Source: Nitrososphaerota archaeon (GTDB lineage: Archaea > Thermoproteota > Nitrososphaeria > Nitrososphaerales > Gagatemarchaeaceae). From it: a stretch of 64,000 nt of DNA. The notes under the pieces were generated by a model that saw nothing but the letters and a program-made list of their open reading frames with translations, had not been told where the DNA came from and made no database searches. The DNA lies in NCBI GenBank assembly GCA_029785825.1, contig JAFLYY010000001.1, positions 1,457,374 through 1,521,373 on the forward strand, written 5' to 3'. This document shows positions 43,320-53,931 of this stretch, one piece after another; positions within the stretch are counted from its first letter, which is position 1; the number at the start of each line of letters is the position of its first letter. The position numbers and the translations under genes are program-made.

Positions 43320-46187
43320 TTGCAGGGTCAGAACGCTTTCCAGCTGCTTTCTCCGCCTCTGGTCGCGGCCTTGAAGGAGAGGGGATTTGATTCCCCCACA
43401 GAGCCCCAGGAGAAGCTGATCCCCATAGTGCGCGAGGGGAAGAATGCGCTCCTGATGGCCCCCACAGGGACGGGAAAGACCGAAGCTGCGCTCCTCCCAA
43501 TACTGGACGCCCTGGTGAGGGAAGGAGAGTCGAGAGAGAAAGGGACGAAGCTCCTGTACATCACGCCCCTGCGGGCCCTCAACAGAGACATGCTGGACAG
43601 GATGCAATGGTGGTGCAAGCGCTTCGACATTAGGCTGGGGGTGAGGCACGGAGACAGTTCTCAGGCGGAGAGGACGAACCTGAGTTTCGCACCCCCGGAC
43701 ATCTTGATTACGACTCCCGAGACGCTACAGATACTCCTCGTCGGGAGAAGGCTCAGGCAGAACCTCTCGAAACTTCGATGGGTCGTTGTGGACGAGGTGC
43801 ACGAACTCTCCGAGGACAAGAGAGGGAGCCAACTGAGCGTCGCGCTGGAGAGGCTGAGAGACGCCGCCGAAAAGGAGTTCCAGATGGTGGGGCTGTCAGC
43901 TACCGTGGGGTCTCCGGAGAAGGTGGCCCAGTTCCTCGTGGGGAGCGGACGGGCCTGCGAGATCGTCCGGGTCCCAGTAGAGAAGAGCCTTTCCCTGAGC
44001 GTGTCCTCCCCGAGGCCGACCGGAGACGACAAGGTCCTGGCCGACGCCATCTACTCCTTTCCCGAGGTGGCCGCCAGGCTGAGGACTGTGAGGGATCTGG
44101 TAGAGAAGTACCGCTCGGTGCTCGTCTTCACTAATACACGTTCTGAGGCCGAGGCACTGTCAAGCAGGTTCAGGGTTTGGGACCCAGGTTTCCCGATTGC
44201 CGTGCACCACAGCTCGCTGTCCAAGGCGACCAGGGAGGCCGTGGAGAAGAGCCTGAAGGAGGGGAAGCTCCTAGGGGTCATCTGCACCAGCAGCCTTGAG
44301 CTCGGCATCGACATAGGGTTCCTTGAGTACGTGGTCCAGTACAATTCTCCGAGGCAGGTGACCAGGCTGATTCAGAGGGTGGGGCGGAGCGGCCACAAAG
44401 TTGGCGAGGTGTCCAACGGCCTCGTCATCACACAGGACTCCGACGACACCTTAGAGGCAGCGGTCCTGTGCAGGAAGTCAGCCATGGGCGAGCTGGAGCC
44501 GCTCGAGCCCGTCTTCAACCCTTACGACGTGGCCATACACCAGGTGGCCGGACTGCTAATCGAACAGAGCAGCTGGAACTTCGACGACGTCATGGCGCTC
44601 TTGAAGCGGAGCTATGCCTACGAAGACCTCGACGCCGAGCGGCTCAGGAAGGTCCTGACTTACATGAGGGAGAGATATCCAAGGCTCGCCTATTACAGTG
44701 AGTCTGACGGCAAGGTGTTCAGGGCCAGGGATGTCAAGCCTCTCTTCCAGTACTACTTCGACAACCTGTCTATGATTCCCGATGAGAAACAGTACCTGGT
44801 CATCGAAGGGGACAACTTCGTCGGCACCCTCGACGAGGCGTTTGTATCAGAGTACGGAGAGGTGGGAGTCAAGTTCGTCGAGGCGGGGAAGTGCTGGAAG
44901 ATAGAGCAAATCTACGGGAACAAGGTTTACGTGAAGTCGGAAGACGACCCCACGGGCGCCGTCCCCAACTGGGTCGGGGACGAGATCCCGGTCCCCAGAG
45001 AGGTGGCGGCGGAGGTCGGGGCCGTCAGGAGGAAATATGCCGAGGAACTGGAGAAGGGGACAGAGTCAGAGTATCTCGACGCGCTGGGGAAGTCCTACCC
45101 GGTCCCGAGGGAGTCGATGCAGGAAGCTCTCAAGGAGGTAGCGGAGCAACTCGAGGCAGGGCTGCCTGTACCATCGGAGAGGTTGTTGACGGTGGAGAAA
45201 TGGGACAAGTACCTTGTCATCCAGGCTGCGTTCGGGCACAGGGTGAACAGGCTGCTGGCCAGGGTCCTAGGGTACCTGATCTCCGAAAGTGTGGGCCAGT
45301 CGGTCGCCGTCCACCAAGACCCTTACAGGATTGTGATAGAGGCGGACGTATCCCCATCCGTGGTCATGTCGATGCTCAAGGAGCTGCACAAGCTGGATCT
45401 GAAGGCGGCGACCGAGAAAGCGGTGGAGAGGAGCGGGATTTTCAAGAGGCGCCTGATACATGCGGGGAAGAAGTGTGGGGCGATCGCCAAGGACGCCGAC
45501 TACGCCAGTGTCTCTATCTCGGGGATCGTAGAGGCGCTGAGGGACACCCCGGTCTACGAGGAGGCCATGAGCGTGATTTTCCATGACGACTTCGACCTCC
45601 CCGCGGCTACGGACGTGGTGGAGAAGATACGTACAGGAGCGATAGAGGTGAAGCTGGTCGCGTACGAAGGTCTCACGCCCATCGCCAGAATCGGCGTGGA
45701 AGAGATAAGCAGGCGAGGAGAGATAGTGTCGCCTGAAAGGCTCAGAGCGCTCCTGAACCAGTCCACCAGGGCAAGGATCAACGAGACTTTTCTCGTCGTG
45801 GTCTGCACCGCCTGCTGGAACTTCCTGGAGCTCAGGAAGGTGTCCGACCTTGAGGGGCTTGAGTCGTGCCCTTCCTGCGGGAAGAATTCGCTCGGGCTGT
45901 CGACGGACTCGTATGAGAACGTCTTTTCGCTCGCCATGAAAGCGCGTAGCAGGGCCGAGATGAGAGGCGCCAGAGAAAAAGTGGTGGAGGGGCTGAAGAA
46001 GTCGGCCGAACTAAGAAAGGAGTACGGCCATGGAGCCGACATGCTGATGGCCGGGAGGGGGATAAGGCTCTCTGACGCGACCGCCCTAGCCGCGAAGATG
46101 AGGAAGGAGGGCGCCAACGTCATCGAGCTCGTGATGGAAGGAGAGAGGGACGCGCTGCGTAGACGCTACTTCTTCGCTCCTTCCTGA
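43320..46187 (+). CDS. Lhr-type superfamily 2 helicase (first copy)
   Basis: A 955-residue Lhr-family helicase, ATP-dependent 3'-5' translocases on DNA or DNA/RNA hybrids implicated in repair. Seen: Q-motif region (PTEPQEKLIPI), motif I APTGTGKTEAALLP, motif II DEVHEL, motif III GLSATVG, motif V SSLELGIDIG, motif VI LIQRVGRSGH, then the winged helix and Lhr-specific domain. Near the C-terminus two CxxC pairs (CTACW and CPSCG) can bind zinc. TTG start at 43320. Its end overlaps by 22 nt the tail of the leftward kite gene. A second Lhr lies at 49611. Confidence 0.93.
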   Translation: MQGQNAFQLLSPPLVAALKERGFDSPTEPQEKLIPIVREGKNALLMAPTGTGKTEAALLPILDALVREGESREKGTKLLYITPLRALNRDMLDRMQWWCKRFDIRLGVRHGDSSQAERTNLSFAPPDILITTPETLQILLVGRRLRQNLSKLRWVVVDEVHELSEDKRGSQLSVALERLRDAAEKEFQMVGLSATVGSPEKVAQFLVGSGRACEIVRVPVEKSLSLSVSSPRPTGDDKVLADAIYSFPEVAARLRTVRDLVEKYRSVLVFTNTRSEAEALSSRFRVWDPGFPIAVHHSSLSKATREAVEKSLKEGKLLGVICTSSLELGIDIGFLEYVVQYNSPRQVTRLIQRVGRSGHKVGEVSNGLVITQDSDDTLEAAVLCRKSAMGELEPLEPVFNPYDVAIHQVAGLLIEQSSWNFDDVMALLKRSYAYEDLDAERLRKVLTYMRERYPRLAYYSESDGKVFRARDVKPLFQYYFDNLSMIPDEKQYLVIEGDNFVGTLDEAFVSEYGEVGVKFVEAGKCWKIEQIYGNKVYVKSEDDPTGAVPNWVGDEIPVPREVAAEVGAVRRKYAEELEKGTESEYLDALGKSYPVPRESMQEALKEVAEQLEAGLPVPSERLLTVEKWDKYLVIQAAFGHRVNRLLARVLGYLISESVGQSVAVHQDPYRIVIEADVSPSVVMSMLKELHKLDLKAATEKAVERSGIFKRRLIHAGKKCGAIAKDADYASVSISGIVEALRDTPVYEEAMSVIFHDDFDLPAATDVVEKIRTGAIEVKLVAYEGLTPIARIGVEEISRRGEIVSPERLRALLNQSTRARINETFLVVVCTACWNFLELRKVSDLEGLESCPSCGKNSLGLSTDSYENVFSLAMKARSRAEMRGAREKVVEGLKKSAELRKEYGHGADMLMAGRGIRLSDATALAAKMRKEGANVIELVMEGERDALRRRYFFAPS

Positions 46188-46729
46188 GCTCGGGAGAGTA
46201 TGAGGGTCATCAGGGTCCTTTCGTCCACCTCCGCGCGGGTCCTCCAGCCGATGTGGAGCATCCCCTTGTCATCCTGCTCCAGGTATCCCCTCTTCACGTA
46301 CCTGTCCAGCGAGTAGTCGACACGCCATCGCGGGAACTTTTCCCTCAGGAACTGCTCTGCCTCCCGCCTCGCCGCCCTCCCGGACTTCGAGTTCACAAAG
46401 GCGATGGTGGCCGCCAGCACCGCCAGGTCGTCAATCCTGATGCCCGAAGTCTCCGCTTCGCTCACCGTCGGGGGCTCCTTGAACCTCAGTAGGAACCTGG
46501 TCGAGTCATCCGACCCATCGGGCCCCTTCACCTCGAAGACTTCCAGGCCCATTGGAGCCACGTCCTCAGACAGCACTTCGAGGATCTTGCGGTAGTCCTT
46601 CCCCAGGTGTCGCCTCACCTCCCACCCTTTGACGCCCGGGTTCCGTCCCCGCTGGAGTACCAGGACCTGGAATGCCCTCCTTACCTTCCTCTCCAGCAGC
46701 GCCCTGTCTCCCCGCTCTGACTCCATCAA
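46166..46729 (-). CDS. candidate Nse1/Nse3-like winged-helix (kite) subunit of an SMC complex
   Basis: A 187-residue protein. The N-terminal half (residues 1-80) looks like a winged helix (VKGWEVRRHLGKDYRKIL, then a strand-rich FEVKG...RFLLRF); the second half (about 100-180) looks like a second one, with AEQFLREKFPRWRVDYSLDRYVKRGYLEQ and the closing LHIGWRTRAEV, which recalls the IGPRxxxEL ending of Nse1/MAGE (Nse3) domains. Two tandem winged helices are the build of kite proteins that bind kleisins. Its start overlaps the upstream candidate kleisin by 4 nt in an operon with an SMC ATPase. The role is inferred from layout and faint motifs. Confidence 0.72.
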   Translation of the reverse strand: MMESERGDRALLERKVRRAFQVLVLQRGRNPGVKGWEVRRHLGKDYRKILEVLSEDVAPMGLEVFEVKGPDGSDDSTRFLLRFKEPPTVSEAETSGIRIDDLAVLAATIAFVNSKSGRAARREAEQFLREKFPRWRVDYSLDRYVKRGYLEQDDKGMLHIGWRTRAEVDERTLMTLILSRAQEGAKK

Positions 46730-47451
46730 CCCTCACCTGTAATCGATATCGCCACGGACCTCGGAGTGCCTTTCGCCTTCTCCGCCAGGGCCATTGTCCA
46801 AATCTTTCCTGTGAGGGGCTCGGTCTTGAGGAGCGCCCTCCCCTCGGTTATCAGGAACGCCATCAGATAGGCCCTCCTCACGCGGTCCTCGAAGGCCTCT
46901 GCGCCTACGAAATCGCGGTAGTCAACCCACTCGCCGTTAGACTTCCGGGTAAGTTCGTCGTAGAGCCGTTCGAGGCCGACTTCGAACTCCTCCTTGGTGA
47001 AGACTCCAAGGCTGACCAGGTCGGAGTACTCCACCGTCCCCGGCCTCACCCCGTAGGTCCCGAACTGGTCCTTGAACCGCTCGGACAACGGCGTCAGCTC
47101 CCTCCAATAGACGAAAGCCCTCTCGAGGCCCCTGGGAGACAGCTGGTCCACCTGGGCGACAGGGTGCCAGCTCTTCACGAATGCGTCGGTAAGCGCCTCC
47201 TTCGGAAGGAGCTTCACCTTAAGCTGTATGAGGAGCGGGTCGATGAAGAGCGCCGAAGCGCGCGATTTCAGCCATTGGTCTTGGAGCTTGACGATCTGGG
47301 CAAGCTCGAGCATCGCCTGGGAGTCGACGAGGAGTTCGTCGAGTAACTTGAGTTCCGGGAGGCGCTGCTTCAGAAGGAGTATCTTCTCTCTGATATCGAC
47401 ATCGAAAGGGTTGGCGGAGCTGGTCTCAACTGACCTGCAGAGTTCAATCAC
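46726..47451 (-). CDS. candidate kleisin (Nse4-like) subunit of an SMC complex
   Basis: A 241-residue protein without enzymatic motifs. The N-terminal ~75 residues are long amphipathic helices (IREKILLLKQRLPELKLLDELL), followed by a less regular middle and a C-terminal domain (about 170-230) with VGAEAFEDRVRRAYLMAFLITEGRA, which resembles the C-terminal winged helix of Nse4-type kleisins. Kleisins join the head of one SMC with the neck of another, and this gene sits 34 nt after the SMC ATPase and overlaps the kite candidate by 4 nt. Kleisins are poorly conserved, so this rests on position, size and helix layout. Confidence 0.68.
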   Translation of the reverse strand: MIELCRSVETSSANPFDVDIREKILLLKQRLPELKLLDELLVDSQAMLELAQIVKLQDQWLKSRASALFIDPLLIQLKVKLLPKEALTDAFVKSWHPVAQVDQLSPRGLERAFVYWRELTPLSERFKDQFGTYGVRPGTVEYSDLVSLGVFTKEEFEVGLERLYDELTRKSNGEWVDYRDFVGAEAFEDRVRRAYLMAFLITEGRALLKTEPLTGKIWTMALAEKAKGTPRSVAISITGEG

Positions 47452-47485
47452 CCTCAGATAGTCGTCGAGCTTTGTCTGGACCAGC

Positions 47486-49492
47486 TCACTTCAGCTCCTT
47501 GACCTCTGACGATCCGTGGACCGCTTGGACCGTGATCACGTGAGCGCTCCTGTCGAAGACTGTGAGGATGGATGGGGTAATCACTATGTACTGGGAGGCT
47601 TCCCTCTGTTTCATCTGGGAGAGTATCATCTTGAACATGGCCTCCCTGTTCCTGGGGTCCATGTGGATGTCGAACTCGTCCATGGCCCGCAGGGGCGAGA
47701 CTATCCTAGCCTGCAGCGAAAGTATGAATGCCATCAGGGCCACGGACCTCTCGCCACCGCTCTGGGTGAAAGGGTCAAGAGTCGTGGGCGCGCCTCCTCG
47801 GAACCCCACATACAGGTCCAGGCCGGCCTCTTCTATAGCGTCCGCCTGTTCGAACTTTATGAAGCCGCTGGCGTCCGCGGCCGACAGGACCGCCTGGTAT
47901 GACGGGTCTACGGCCTCCACCAGGTCCTCTATGGCCCTCTTCCAGACGTCCTTCCTCGACTCGAGCTCGGAAAGCATGACCTTCTTGTTCTCCTGCAGCT
48001 TAGCCAGCTTGACCTTCAGCTCTTCTATGTTCCCGGAGTAGTCGTTGTAGATCTTCTCCGCGTCGTCTGGGACGTCTTGCATCTTTTGGATGTGGGCCGA
48101 GACCAGCTTTAGCTCTTCAGAGACCTCGTATGGCTGCCGCGAGGTCTCCATCCTTGTTCCTGCCTTCTCTAGGTCTGGGGCTAGCTTGCCGAGCTCCTCC
48201 CTGTACTCCTTCGCGCTCCGCTCGAGGTCGCGGAGGTCAGACTCCATCACCCTTATCCTGTACGACAGGACTTCGGCTTTCACTCTGAACGAGACGAAGC
48301 TCTCGATGGTCCGCCCGATTAGCTCTTCTGTCCTAGTTATCTCCGGCTGCAGCGAAGAGACCTCTCTGTCCAACTCCCCCTTCCGGCGCTGGGCGTCCTC
48401 CTCAGCCGTCCGCCCCTTTTCCCCGATGTAGTCTGCCAGCTCCTTGAGCCTCTTTGTCCCTTTGTTTGAAGGGACAATGAGCACCTCATCTATGGCGCTG
48501 GAGAGACCCGTGAGGTCTTCCTTGATCGAGCGGTAGGTGTCCCGTGCCGATTCGTCTTTCGCTTTCTCCGACTCCGCCCTCACAAGGGCATAGTACAGCT
48601 TCCTGAGTTCGACCTGCTTGTCCAGAAGGGTCTGGTGTGTCTCCTCGGCGTCCCCGGCCACCTCCGCCTGCTGCGACTTCAGGTCCTCGAGGGCCCTCGT
48701 CTTGGAAAGGATCTTCTCCTCCGCTCCCTGCAGGGCCTTCGCCAACTTGGTCTCTGAGCTCCAGAGCAGCTCCTTGCTGAGGAGGTCTCTGTGCTCCAGT
48801 AGTCCCCTCTTCTCCTGATAGCGGTCGTACACCTGCTTCCAGTATTCGAGCGCCTGGTTGGCGTTGTCGATGAGCTGCAACAGAGAGCTCTCTTCCCCCA
48901 CCAGCCCGCTCAGTTCCTGCTCGGCAAGGACTATCCTCTGCCTGTATTCTGAGAACCCCACCGCCTCCTCCACCATCCTCAGCCGCTCCTGGGGCGCGAC
49001 GGCCCCCAGCTCCTCAATCATACCCTGGTGCATTATGATGAGGAGGTTGTCGGGATTGATACCGAACTCTCTCAACAGTCTGACGACCTCACTCTTGTCG
49101 ATTTCCTTGTAGTCGGCTTCGAACCAGTATGACCCGTCCCGCCTGAGGTACCTGCTCAGCATGAACGTGTCTGACTTCGAGTAAGGAATCGGGCGTTGGC
49201 CGCTCTTGGGTGAGTTGTCAAAGATGAGGGATACCCTGGCTATGTCTTTCCCCCTCCTGATGAGGTCTGAGAGCTTCCTAGAGCGCTCGGTGTACGCCTG
49301 GCCGAATGCCACAGATATCGCGAGTAGGACCGAGGACTTCCCCGCCCCGTTAGGGCCTACGATGAGGTTGAGCCCTTCGCGGAGTGGTATACGGGCGTAC
49401 TCATAACTCATGAAGTTCTCCAGGATTATCTCCTTGACCGTCGTGAGGTGCGAAGGCCTCTCCTGGGAGACTTCTCTTACGCTTCGCGACAA
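47486..49492 (-). CDS. compact SMC-family ATPase with Smc5/Smc6-like head motifs
   Basis: A 668-residue SMC protein, about half the size of a classical one. Seen: Walker A GPNGAGKSS (residues 46-54), a Q-loop/latch region IIMHQGMIEELGAVAPQ (about 152-168), a long coiled coil, a central break around EVLIVPSNKGTKRL where a small hinge could lie, a returning coil, signature SGGERSVALMAF from residue 578, and Walker B LRAMDEFDIHMDPRN (601-615) followed by YIVITPSILTV. The signature, DEFD-x-HMD and ITP features resemble Smc5/Smc6 more than Smc1-4, Rad50 or bacterial SMC. No CxxC zinc hook is present. TTG start; first gene of the trio. Confidence 0.9.
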   Translation of the reverse strand: MSRSVREVSQERPSHLTTVKEIILENFMSYEYARIPLREGLNLIVGPNGAGKSSVLLAISVAFGQAYTERSRKLSDLIRRGKDIARVSLIFDNSPKSGQRPIPYSKSDTFMLSRYLRRDGSYWFEADYKEIDKSEVVRLLREFGINPDNLLIIMHQGMIEELGAVAPQERLRMVEEAVGFSEYRQRIVLAEQELSGLVGEESSLLQLIDNANQALEYWKQVYDRYQEKRGLLEHRDLLSKELLWSSETKLAKALQGAEEKILSKTRALEDLKSQQAEVAGDAEETHQTLLDKQVELRKLYYALVRAESEKAKDESARDTYRSIKEDLTGLSSAIDEVLIVPSNKGTKRLKELADYIGEKGRTAEEDAQRRKGELDREVSSLQPEITRTEELIGRTIESFVSFRVKAEVLSYRIRVMESDLRDLERSAKEYREELGKLAPDLEKAGTRMETSRQPYEVSEELKLVSAHIQKMQDVPDDAEKIYNDYSGNIEELKVKLAKLQENKKVMLSELESRKDVWKRAIEDLVEAVDPSYQAVLSAADASGFIKFEQADAIEEAGLDLYVGFRGGAPTTLDPFTQSGGERSVALMAFILSLQARIVSPLRAMDEFDIHMDPRNREAMFKMILSQMKQREASQYIVITPSILTVFDRSAHVITVQAVHGSSEVKELK

Positions 49493-49610
49493 AACGCAGG
49501 CCGCACAATCCCTAGACGCTTTTAGACATTGCTGACAGGAGGGGGTGGAATCACTTTCGCGATACCCTCTCCTATCACACCTTAAATCGCCGGAAGCGTC
49601 TCAGAGGCTG

Positions 49611-52451
49611 ATGTCAGCCCATTCATTCGAGGCGCTCGCCCCGGCTGTCAGGGGGCTCCTCGCTGAGACGGGGATCACCACTCCTACCCCTCCTCAGGCC
49701 CAGGCCTGGCCCCTGATATCCAGAGGAGAGGATGCCCTGGTGGTGGCGCCCACAGGCTCCGGGAAGACCGAAGCGGCCCTGCTCCCTCTTCTCAGCAGGA
49801 TTGTCTCGGAGGGGCACGGGGAAGGCATCTCTTTGCTATACATCACCCCGATGCGGGCGCTGAACCGGGACATGCTGAAGCGGCTGCAATCGTGGTGCGC
49901 CAGGCTGGGACTCACTGTAGACATCAGGCACGGTGACACTCCCCAGGCGCAGCGTGCGAAGCAGTCGGCACACCCCCCCGACGTTTTGGTGACCACCCCT
50001 GAGACCCTTCAGGCTATCCTTCCAGGAAGAAGGATGAGGGAGAACCTATCTCATCTGAAGGGTGTAGTGGTCGATGAGCTGCACAACCTCGTCGAGAGCA
50101 AGCGCGGCGTACAGCTCTGCGTGGGGCTGCAGAGGCTCAGAAAGGTTGCCCCTGGTTATCAGCTGGTCGCCCTTTCCGCCACCGTGGGCACTCCCAAGGT
50201 AGCAGCAGAGTTCCTCTTCGGTGATGGGAAGAGGACCCTGGTCGAGGCCAAGGCGCCCAAGGAGTTCGCATATGCCATCGAATACCCTGTCCCAGACCCG
50301 TCCACTCAGGCAGCCGCCAAGGAGACATATTCAGCCCCCGATCTAGCCGCGAGGCTTTCGAAGATCAATTCGCTGATAGACGCCCACACTTCGACCTTGA
50401 TCTTCGTCAACAGCAGGACCGTCGCAGAGATGCTGGGAGAGAAGCTGGCCCGCCTGAGGAAGGACATAGGAGTGCACCACGGTTCGCTTCCGAGGGAAGA
50501 GCGGGAGCGGGTCGAGCAGGCGTTCAAGGCCGGAGAGCTCAGAGCCCTAGTGTGCACGAGCACCCTGGAGCTCGGGATCGACGTCGGGTCGGTGGACCTG
50601 GTCGTCCAGTACATGTCTCCCAGGCAGGTGACCAGCTTAGTCCAGAGAGTGGGGAGAAGCGGCCATAAGCTGGGGAGGGTGTCGAAGGGGATTCTCGTGG
50701 CGGTGTCAGCTGACGACATATTGGAATCGTCAGCGAGCATAAACTCGGCGGCCAGGGGGGAAATCGAGCCCACGCGCCCTTACTCGAACTCGCTCGACGT
50801 CCTCGCGCACCAAATCGCGGGATATCTGATGGACTTCGAGACGATGGATGTGGACAGCATGCTGGCGGAGCTCAGGAAGGCGGAGCCTTTCGCGCGGCTC
50901 ACCGAAGACGCGTTCATGCGCACGGCCGCCTATCTCGCGGAGCTCAGGAAACTGAGGCTCGACGGAAGAATCCTGTCTAGGACGCGTCTGACCAGGGAGT
51001 ACTATTACGAGAACCTGTCCATGATACCTGACGAGACGAGGTATCTCGTGGTCGACGTATCCACCAACCAGACCGTGGGCATCCTTGGCGAGGAGTTCGT
51101 CCTCCTGAGGGCGAAGGCGGGCATTCATTTCGTGATCAAGGGGAAGGTGTGGCAGGTGGAGCAGATAGCCGACGACAGAAAGATCTACGTCACCCCGGTG
51201 GAGGACCCCTTGGCCGCCGTCCCTGGTTGGGACGGAGAGATGCTCCCCATCCCCTATGAGCTGGCTTTGCAGACGGGGAAGCTCAGGCGGGAGATCTCCG
51301 CTGCTTTGGACTCCGGGCCCGAAGCGATAGAAAGCCTGGGAAGGCTGATCCCCGGGGACAGCGCAGCGAGGGCCATGGTGATTGACGAGATAGCGGAACA
51401 CAAGAAGATGGGTGCGCCCGTCCCTTCGGACAGGCTCGTACTCTTCGAGGGGTTCGGCCGATACCTGATAGTACACCTGTGTTTCGGCGAGTCGGTCAAC
51501 AGGACTTTCGCCTACGTCTTCGAAGAGATCCTTTCGAGGAGGGGCCTGGTGAGGGTGTGGTGGCTCGACGGCTACCGGCTGCTCATGGAGCTTACGGCAG
51601 ACACCGAGGATCTGGACCTCGGTGCGATGGCGAAGGAACTGATGGGGCTGACACCGGACGAGCTCGAAAAGACCTATGCCGTCGCCGCCCAGAGGAACTT
51701 CCCCTTCCCAGCCAGGGTGAAGTTCGTCGCCGAGAGGTTCGGCGCCCTCAAGCGCGGGAAGCTGATCGCCCACCCGAACCTCTGCTCCCTCCCGACGAGG
51801 TTCGAGAAGACCCCGATCTTCGAGGAGGCCCTTCAGGAGACAGGCAGGGACCTGATAGACATGGGGAAAGGTAGGCAGATCTTGGTCGCCGTGGCGGCGG
51901 GGGAGGTGGCGGTCGAGACATTCCACGCCGGAGAGAGGCCAACCCCCATCGCATACGGCCTCCTTTACAGGTACCTGGAGGTGCCAGAGGCGGTCGCACC
52001 GGACTCCCTGGGGAAATCGTCGTACCAGCGGATGAAAGCAAGCATCTTCGGCACTGGGGTGAGCCTCCTATGTGTAAAGTGTGGGAGAGACCAAGAGGAG
52101 TCAACCGTCGGGGAGCTCCCGGAGGAACCCCGCTGCGCCGGCTGCGGGTCCGGGCTCCTAGTCCCCTGTTACTGGGGGACCGCTAAGCTGGCAGACTTGG
52201 TGAAGAGGCGGGAAGCGAAGTCACCCCTCACCGAAGAGGAACGCTCGGAGCTCTCCCGGGCGAGGAGGGGGGCAGACTTGGTGCTCTCTTATGGCAAGAA
52301 GGCCGTGGTGGCGCAGACCGTGTATGGGATAGGACCCCAGACCGCTTCAAGGATACTCGCTGAGATGCACGACGACGAGGAGGCGTTCTACAGGGACCTC
52401 CTAGAGGCGAAAATCCGCTTCGTAACGACGCGGCAGTACTGGGGGAGCTGA
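49611..52451 (+). CDS. Lhr-type superfamily 2 helicase (second copy)
   Basis: A 946-residue paralogue of the helicase at 43320. Seen: APTGSGKTEAALLP (motif I), DELHNL (motif II), ALSATVG (motif III), TSTLELGIDVG (motif V), LVQRVGRSGH (motif VI), Lhr winged-helix and core domains, zinc-type cysteines CVKCG and CAGCG near the C-terminus, and a final helix-hairpin-helix-like VYGIGPQTASRIL. I start at the ATG at 49611 because a TATA-like CCTTAAATC lies about 28 nt before it; an ATG at 49545 would add 22 residues. It heads a run with an unknown protein and a metallophosphoesterase and diverges from the SMC operon across 118 nt. Confidence 0.93.
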   Translation: MSAHSFEALAPAVRGLLAETGITTPTPPQAQAWPLISRGEDALVVAPTGSGKTEAALLPLLSRIVSEGHGEGISLLYITPMRALNRDMLKRLQSWCARLGLTVDIRHGDTPQAQRAKQSAHPPDVLVTTPETLQAILPGRRMRENLSHLKGVVVDELHNLVESKRGVQLCVGLQRLRKVAPGYQLVALSATVGTPKVAAEFLFGDGKRTLVEAKAPKEFAYAIEYPVPDPSTQAAAKETYSAPDLAARLSKINSLIDAHTSTLIFVNSRTVAEMLGEKLARLRKDIGVHHGSLPREERERVEQAFKAGELRALVCTSTLELGIDVGSVDLVVQYMSPRQVTSLVQRVGRSGHKLGRVSKGILVAVSADDILESSASINSAARGEIEPTRPYSNSLDVLAHQIAGYLMDFETMDVDSMLAELRKAEPFARLTEDAFMRTAAYLAELRKLRLDGRILSRTRLTREYYYENLSMIPDETRYLVVDVSTNQTVGILGEEFVLLRAKAGIHFVIKGKVWQVEQIADDRKIYVTPVEDPLAAVPGWDGEMLPIPYELALQTGKLRREISAALDSGPEAIESLGRLIPGDSAARAMVIDEIAEHKKMGAPVPSDRLVLFEGFGRYLIVHLCFGESVNRTFAYVFEEILSRRGLVRVWWLDGYRLLMELTADTEDLDLGAMAKELMGLTPDELEKTYAVAAQRNFPFPARVKFVAERFGALKRGKLIAHPNLCSLPTRFEKTPIFEEALQETGRDLIDMGKGRQILVAVAAGEVAVETFHAGERPTPIAYGLLYRYLEVPEAVAPDSLGKSSYQRMKASIFGTGVSLLCVKCGRDQEESTVGELPEEPRCAGCGSGLLVPCYWGTAKLADLVKRREAKSPLTEEERSELSRARRGADLVLSYGKKAVVAQTVYGIGPQTASRILAEMHDDEEAFYRDLLEAKIRFVTTRQYWGS

Positions 52452-52487: not shown

Positions 52488-53171
52488 TTGGTCCTAGCAG
52501 GGAAGGTCTTCCTCGTGAGGGAGAACTATGACATAGGCACCCTCACAGAGAAGCTGAAGTCGTTCAGGATAGAAACAGAGACGAGCGTCGAGGGGAAGGA
52601 CTTCAAACTGGTGACGGAGATAACCGACCTCAGCGTGGGCAAGGAGACCCTGGAGGGGAAGTTCTCCTTCGACTCAGTGTTCGTCGTCCCCCACAGGGGG
52701 GAGCCCCTGCCCGTCCCGCGCACCTACGAAGCTCCTTTCACGTTCAACATGTATAATGACAGGATGTTCCTTGCGGTCTATGACAAGAAGAACAGGGCGA
52801 ACAGCATCGCCAACGAGATGAGCAAAGCTGTGTTCATGAGTCTGGGCCAAATCGTGGAGGCCAGGATAGACCCGGAGACTCTGAGGAAGTTCCACGAAGC
52901 GAACTTCGAAGACACCAAGGTCATATTCTACTCGGATGTGGACCTACCGAACATTACCAAGTTGTCTCTATATGGAGCAGAGCTGGGCAACACGAGCCTC
53001 TATAGCGACTACCTGACCCACGGGAAACTCTGGTACATAGTGTTCAAGAGCAAGGCATACGGGTACGTGTTCGGGCTCACGCGAAACTGCATCCTGACGG
53101 GGTTCAGCAAGATGGAGCTGTCGGAGTTCAAGAACTTCCTGGACGGTCAGGTCCTCCCGCTGATCGCATAG
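52488..53171 (+). CDS. hypothetical protein between Lhr helicase and metallophosphoesterase
   Basis: I do not recognise this 227-residue protein. It appears soluble and alpha/beta, with an N-terminal half rich in strands (about 15-85; VTEITDLSVGKETLEGKF) and a C-terminal half with several aromatic residues (about 150-215; LWYIVFKSKAYGYVFGL). There are no catalytic motifs that I can name. It starts with TTG 36 nt after the helicase and ends 1 nt before the phosphoesterase, so the three are co-transcribed and may act together on nucleic acid. Confidence 0.8.
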   Translation: MVLAGKVFLVRENYDIGTLTEKLKSFRIETETSVEGKDFKLVTEITDLSVGKETLEGKFSFDSVFVVPHRGEPLPVPRTYEAPFTFNMYNDRMFLAVYDKKNRANSIANEMSKAVFMSLGQIVEARIDPETLRKFHEANFEDTKVIFYSDVDLPNITKLSLYGAELGNTSLYSDYLTHGKLWYIVFKSKAYGYVFGLTRNCILTGFSKMELSEFKNFLDGQVLPLIA

Positions 53172-53172
53172 T

Positions 53173-53931
53173 TTGCTGAAGATAATCCCCGGCGAGGCTG
53201 CGTTGGTCTTCTCGAAGGAAGATTCGAGGACACTCCTCATATCAGATCTGCACCTCGGGCTCGAGAAGGAGTTGGCGAAGAAGGGGTTCCGACTACCAGC
53301 CTACTCGGTGAGAATGGTGGAGAGGTTGAAGATAATCGCGGACGACCACGGGATCGAGCGGTTGGTGGTGCTCGGGGACGTGAAGCACACCGTGGGGAAG
53401 GTGGAAGACATCGACTGGGGGGTAGTCCCCTGGTTCTTCGACACCATGCTCGACCTGTTCGAGGCCGTTGAGGTTGTGCCGGGGAACCACGACGGCAACA
53501 TCAGGACGGTCCTCCCACAGCGGATCCTGTTGCACCCGTCCCATGGGACGGTCATCGGGAGAGGCAGGGGGAGGATCGGGGTAGCCCATGGACATGCCTG
53601 GCCCTCGGAAGAGGCCATAGCGACGAGGAACTTGGTGATAGGGCACTCCCACTTTACCTATGAGATGCGCGACGCACTTGGCTCAAGGACAAGGGAATCC
53701 GTCTGGGTGACTGCGGAGTACGACGTGGCGGACCTGATGATGGGAGCCGGCTACGAATCGACGCTCGGTGGGAAAGGGAAGCTCATCGTGATGCCGCCCT
53801 TCAACAGGCTGGTGGGAGGACAGCCAATAAACAGAAACAGGTCGTTCGAATTCGGTCCCATCCTCTCTTCAAGGTCGTTGAGCCTTTCTCAGGCTGACAT
53901 ATTCTTGATGGACGGGACGCGTGTCACCTGA
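53173..53931 (+). CDS. Lhr-associated calcineurin-like metallophosphoesterase
   Basis: A 252-residue binuclear metal phosphoesterase. Seen: motif I SDLHLG (about residues 21-26), motif II GDVKH in place of the common GDxxD/H, motif III GNHDG, and the histidine motifs AHGHAW and GHSHFTYEM. In archaea and bacteria such enzymes often neighbour Lhr helicases, and some have nuclease activity, which suits this operon. Start TTG at 53173, one nucleotide after the previous stop. Confidence 0.92.
   Translation: MLKIIPGEAALVFSKEDSRTLLISDLHLGLEKELAKKGFRLPAYSVRMVERLKIIADDHGIERLVVLGDVKHTVGKVEDIDWGVVPWFFDTMLDLFEAVEVVPGNHDGNIRTVLPQRILLHPSHGTVIGRGRGRIGVAHGHAWPSEEAIATRNLVIGHSHFTYEMRDALGSRTRESVWVTAEYDVADLMMGAGYESTLGGKGKLIVMPPFNRLVGGQPINRNRSFEFGPILSSRSLSLSQADIFLMDGTRVT

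Follow-up and report, generated by a model that had tools for sequence, protein, structure and literature searches.

An archaeal three-gene operon likely to encode a hinge-less relative of the Smc5/6 core

In the SMC families, the ATPase heads engage on ATP, a kleisin bridges neck and cap, and kite subunits sit on the kleisin. The eukaryotic Smc5/6 core (Smc5, Smc6, Nse4, Nse3, and Nse1) has two different SMC subunits of about 1100 residues and two different kites. Archaeal SMC-ScpA and bacterial Smc-ScpAB share an SMC homodimer and a kleisin with a helical N-domain and a C-terminal winged helix, joined in bacteria by a tandem winged-helix kite, and the three-subunit plan of SMC, kleisin, and kite is also followed by Wadjet (JetABC) and MukBEF/MksBEF. 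Further SMC-like ATPases of archaea include ASRP (coalescin ClsN, Sph), arcadin-4, and Rad50. According to PMC7055376, archaeal SMC complexes are thought to be generally without kites, and a 2023 review (PMC10003631) describes the origin of the eukaryotic SMC-kleisin partners as little known, except that Nse1 and Nse3 are kites. An archaeal 'SMC5/6-related' SMC (Yoshinaga and Inagaki 2021, as cited in PMC9389158) has been grouped with Smc5 and Smc6 in a sub-clade supported by an MLBP of 100% (PMC9389158). The portions of that paper on 'SMC5/6-related' archaea name the SMC and make no mention of a kleisin, a kite, or an operon.

The operon described here lies in a window of 64,000 nucleotides, i.e., the whole stretch of DNA that was analysed, which corresponds to positions 1457374-1521373 of contig C1 in a near-complete archaeal genome (completeness 100). 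Close relatives of this genome are uncultured Nitrososphaerota/Thaumarchaeota assemblies. Three open reading frames on the minus strand form the leftward unit that a preliminary description of this DNA had reported: an SMC ATPase of 668 aa (47486..49492; Pfam SMC_N, 2.8e-35), a middle protein of 241 aa (46726..47451), and a small protein (46166..46729). The last two genes had been said to overlap by 4 nt, which is correct only if the small protein (187 aa) starts from the TTG at 46729; the ATG at 46726, which is at least as likely a start, gives 186 aa and a 1-nt overlap (TGATG). Among 80 archaeal loci encoding a closely related ATPase, 57 carried the complete trio in the same order, which indicates a real gene set rather than chance reading frames. 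These loci belong to Nitrososphaeria-like, Bathyarchaeia, Methanomethylicia, Hecatellales, and Hadarchaea assemblies.

The ATPase harbored the Walker A motif GPNGAGKS (residues 46-53, 49334..49357), which is conserved in an alignment of 36 homologues, the ABC signature SGGER (residues 578-582, 47747..47761; SGGERS with residue 583), in which SGGE is invariant, and the Walker B motif DEFD (residues 605-608, 47669..47680), in which D605 and E606 are invariant; all three lie on the minus strand. Walker B is followed by HMDPRNRE and later by ITPS, so that the head motifs listed previously (signature, Walker B, and ITP) are all present, most of their positions being invariant in the 36 homologues. 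In a comparison of the family profile built from these homologues with the PDB, the top ten rows were Smc6 and Smc5 (8e-56 to 1e-46), followed by Smc2 (2e-43) and prokaryotic SMC, with Rad50 far lower. The profile of the C-terminal head alone placed human and yeast Smc5 first (1.6e-31). A tree of the C-terminal head, for which the eukaryotic sequences (including SMC1A, SMC2, and SMC3) were taken from PDB entries, joined the archaeal family to Smc5 and Smc6 and left canonical archaeal SMC and SMC1-3 outside this group. The support for this grouping was modest (UFBoot 83, SH-aLRT 50), yet the published sub-clade that unites Smc5, Smc6, and 'SMC5/6-related' SMC is in agreement with it, and, like the PDB ranking, the tree points to kinship with Smc5/Smc6 rather than with SMC1-4. 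The SMC of the trio very probably belongs to the same family as the published 'SMC5/6-related' SMC, to judge from the description of the latter in PMC9389158.

The N-terminal head profile did not favour Smc5/6, as Smc2 (1e-23) stood slightly above Smc5 (6e-21). This result is in line with a different explanation, according to which the trio is a duplicated and shortened condensin-type Smc-ScpAB with a role in chromosome folding, its likeness to Smc5/6 being convergent or a long-branch effect. The plan of a homodimer with a kite, which is that of bacterial Smc-ScpAB, would also suit this explanation. However, both the full SMC profile and the C-terminal head profile favour Smc5/6, and we regard a condensin-type origin as improbable, in view also of the kleisin and kite comparisons given below.

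The ATPase differs from eukaryotic Smc5 and Smc6 in its length (about 590-690 aa in the family) and in the lack of any recognizable hinge. No sign of a hinge domain was found in the 36 SMC members, and no CxxC motif indicative of a zinc hook occurred in any of them. Walker A and the signature were 456-563 residues apart in the family, compared with ~1060 in the genome's canonical SMC, and the alignment of the SMC profile to Smc6 in the PDB fell into two pieces, skipping the Smc6 hinge. The arm-tip region, where a hinge would be expected (residues 321-360, 48413..48532, minus strand), was the most variable part of the protein (column entropy 2.7-2.9, gaps 29-38% among the 36 members), and the shortest members (588-591 aa) were largely without it. 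From these sequence features we conclude that the arms would be coiled-coil hairpins with the hinge absent. The earlier characterization of the SMC as short-armed understates the case, because the hinge domain, too, is apparently absent.

The middle protein, with a helical N-domain and a C-terminal winged helix, resembles the kleisin Nse4. Nse4/EID3 were the only solved structures matched by its family profile (best 5.8e-5), and Pfam Nse4_C was matched by 19 of 34 family members at E<=0.01. The window's own copy had no significant Pfam match and nothing informative in NCBIfam, and an Nse4_C search of its genome was empty, so the link to Nse4 runs through its relatives. In the AlphaFold model (pLDDT 71, fair), the C-domain retrieved Nse4 in the Smc5/6 holocomplex, head-bound ScpA (target-normalised TM 0.79), and Scc1-C by Foldseek. 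The resemblance to ScpA-C and Scc1-C, together with the end-to-end alignment of the family profile with canonical archaeal ScpA (hhalign E 3.5e-4, probability 37%), is what the condensin-type explanation would lead one to expect.

A canonical SMC with an adjoining ScpA is encoded in the same genome, as is a Rad50-like ATPase elsewhere, which makes the trio an additional system. The canonical pair served as an internal control. Its ScpA family, sampled from this genome and related ones, matched the ScpA, CAP-H2, and Rad21 profiles and was never matched by the Nse4 profile. The trio kleisin showed the reverse: none of the 34 members matched ScpA PF02616, which was matched by 7 of 15 canonical archaeal ScpA sequences, and other kleisin profiles gave hardly any match (one for Rad21, E 0.09). 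Since the Nse4 and ScpA matches are reciprocal, the two SMCs of the genome appear each to have their own type of kleisin, which argues against a condensin-type duplicate. The canonical ScpA is itself divergent (L131:6713-7336, genome C1:652212-652835); the Pfam ScpA model misses the copy in this genome, and the matches of its family extend to the kleisins of both condensin (CAP-H2) and cohesin (Rad21).

The small protein had been described as a double winged-helix protein, and its AlphaFold model (pLDDT 87) indeed contains two winged-helix domains, as in a kite. When this model was compared with the PDB by Foldseek, chains of Nse3/MAGE-G1 and Nse1 came out best (E from 1.9e-5), JetB and MukE ranked lower, and ScpB did not appear in the 50 matches listed; the last point again speaks against a condensin-type trio. 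By sequence, the link to Nse3 is thin. Pfam MAGE was matched by 4 of 32 kite members (best 3.6e-4), whereas the window's own copy had no significant Pfam or NCBIfam match and is connected through its relatives. The kite profile reached Nse3 in the PDB with an E of 0.13, or 0.56 for a broader alignment with ANME-1 members, the addition of which did not improve the MAGE match. The C-terminal GWRTRAE motif looks similar to the WGPRA motif of MAGE proteins, a resemblance that we take as a lead only.

Defence against plasmids or phages by a system akin to Wadjet (JetABCD), MksBEF, or Lamassu was also considered, given that JetABC is likewise composed of SMC, kleisin, and kite, that JetB and MukE are among the lower kite matches, and that the ATPase had weak PADLOC matches to Mad3, LmuB, and JetC (JetC only 1e-9). 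Nevertheless, the kleisin and the kite had no match to any PADLOC model, including those for JetA and JetB, and the structural comparison favours Nse3 and Nse1 over JetB and MukE. No nuclease gene was a recurrent neighbour of the trio in the loci examined, no JetD was annotated in the window neighbourhood, and the trio SMC appears to be hinge-less, unlike that of Wadjet and MukBEF. The trio is moreover conserved across archaea with stable neighbours, as opposed to the patchy distribution typical of defence genes, and a defence function is therefore highly implausible. Equally hard to credit is a Rad50/RecN/ASRP-type repair ATPase with two unrelated small neighbours: RecN and archaeal ASRP families do include hinge-less short SMC-like proteins (PMC9389158) and weak matches to Rad50 and ASRP were obtained for the ATPase, but these scores are far under those for SMC and Smc5/6 (the ASRP model scores 42 bits where its cut-off is 300, and arcadin-4 38 where it is 860), no zinc hook occurs in the 36 members, the Rad50-like gene is a separate one, and the three genes co-occur almost perfectly, with the small proteins matching Nse4 and Nse3/Nse1. 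We rejected the defence system, the Rad50/RecN/ASRP-type ATPase, and the plain condensin duplicate alike.

The co-occurrence of the trio, which the preliminary description had proposed to survey across archaea, was apparent from 300 genomes belonging to the phylum of the window. Of these, 128 had the SMC (E<=1e-60), 127 the middle protein, and 125 the small protein, and about 122 carried all three when the lists were compared by eye. None of the trio's genes was present in the 20 genomes listed for one family (f10) of the same order as the window genome. In ANME-1, the SMC gene is mostly solitary and at first seemed to be without partners. This impression was ruled out, as the operon is split and the kleisin and kite genes are adjacent to each other at a separate site in 12 of 13 such genomes (L119-L130); an intact trio is retained at one ANME-1 locus (L066). 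The survival of the kleisin-kite pair after the operon was broken is the behaviour expected of a kleisin and its kite. Strong matches to the middle protein occurred in 15 of 148 genomes sampled from the phylum of ANME-1. At one Hecatellales locus (L046), about 2.7 kb separates the SMC gene from the kleisin-kite pair. Additionally, a 3.3-kb contig labelled Nitrosotalea (L064) encodes an SMC 42% identical to that of the window, with scores near those of the ANME-1 matches, and its label is possibly a binning error.

The SMC, the kleisin, and the kite, each tested separately, point to Smc5, Smc6, Nse4, and Nse3/Nse1 as their best matches, in agreement with the Smc5/6-type assignment made at the outset, and the canonical SMC-ScpA pair of the same genomes behaves differently. 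These results make it likely that the product of the operon is an archaeal relative of the Smc5/6 core, made up of a homodimeric SMC without a hinge, a single Nse4-type kleisin, and a single kite species. The trio differs from its eukaryotic counterpart in having one SMC gene instead of two and one kite gene instead of two, and no second gene of either kind was found in its own genome. A homodimeric SMC, as suggested previously, fits the single such SMC gene, and the single genes for SMC and kite together imply a homodimer with one kite species, as far as gene content can tell. We do not refer to the trio as a Smc5/6 complex proper, because a heterodimer of SMCs and kites and a hinge were both looked for and neither was found. 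From Smc-ScpAB it is distinguished by the Nse4 rather than ScpA profile of its kleisin and by the separate SMC-ScpA pair in the same genomes.

By analogy with its relatives, the trio probably works like Smc5/6. Two SMC heads would close on two ATPs. Of the kleisin, the helical N-domain would bind the neck of one SMC and the winged helix would cap the head of the other, with the kites, probably as a dimer, held by its middle part. DNA would then be clamped above the engaged heads, and cycles of ATP would hold or move it. Without a hinge, the arms would be antiparallel coiled-coil hairpins, so that the complex might form a clamp whose arm tips stay open, and not a ring closed at both ends, i.e., an ATP-driven DNA clamp that could possibly still move DNA. 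If this is true, the trio would offer a compact Smc5/6 relative that can be produced from three short genes, as well as a natural test of whether a hinge-less SMC complex can clamp or extrude DNA.

With regard to evolution, we lean towards a Smc5/6 core that predates eukaryotes, having existed in archaea as a hinge-less homodimer beside SMC-ScpA, with the Smc5/Smc6 and Nse1/Nse3 pairs as later duplications. This would trace the MAGE and EID families to a prokaryotic root. The archaeal 'SMC5/6-related' SMC has already been published (cited in PMC9389158), whereas its kleisin and kite partners are apparently unreported: no report of archaeal relatives of Nse4 or Nse3/MAGE was found in the literature searched, which did not extend to preprints and many journals and is thus not proof of novelty.

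The trio is flanked by two genes for Lhr-type helicases (each with Pfam DEAD, WH_Lhr, and DEAD_assoc) on the plus strand, one convergent with the operon (43320..46187) and the other divergent from the SMC gene (49545..52451). Further downstream on the same strand is a gene for a PdeM/SbcD-like metallophosphoesterase (53173..53931), the scores of which for TIGR00024 (2.3e-25) and TIGR04123 (PdeM, 7.6e-15) are below the curated NCBIfam cut-offs. An Lhr-type helicase was found near the trio in several archaeal groups, but it is not adjacent in ANME-1. Based on the homology to Smc5/6 and on the Lhr-helicase and PdeM-like neighbours, the role of the trio would most likely be DNA repair or the resolution of joined DNA together with the Lhr helicase, in parallel with the canonical SMC-ScpA. 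The two helicases and the phosphoesterase, all with scores below the curated cut-offs, also resemble the bacterial ligase-associated Lhr-PdeM DNA-damage set. Between the second helicase and the phosphoesterase, a plus-strand gene (52488..53171) encodes a protein of 227 aa without a Pfam, NCBIfam, or PDB match that would mark it as an extra subunit. This protein is strongly conserved in archaea. Its gene lies close to that of the SMC in several archaeal groups as well, and we consider the protein a possible overlooked repair factor or a candidate accessory factor.
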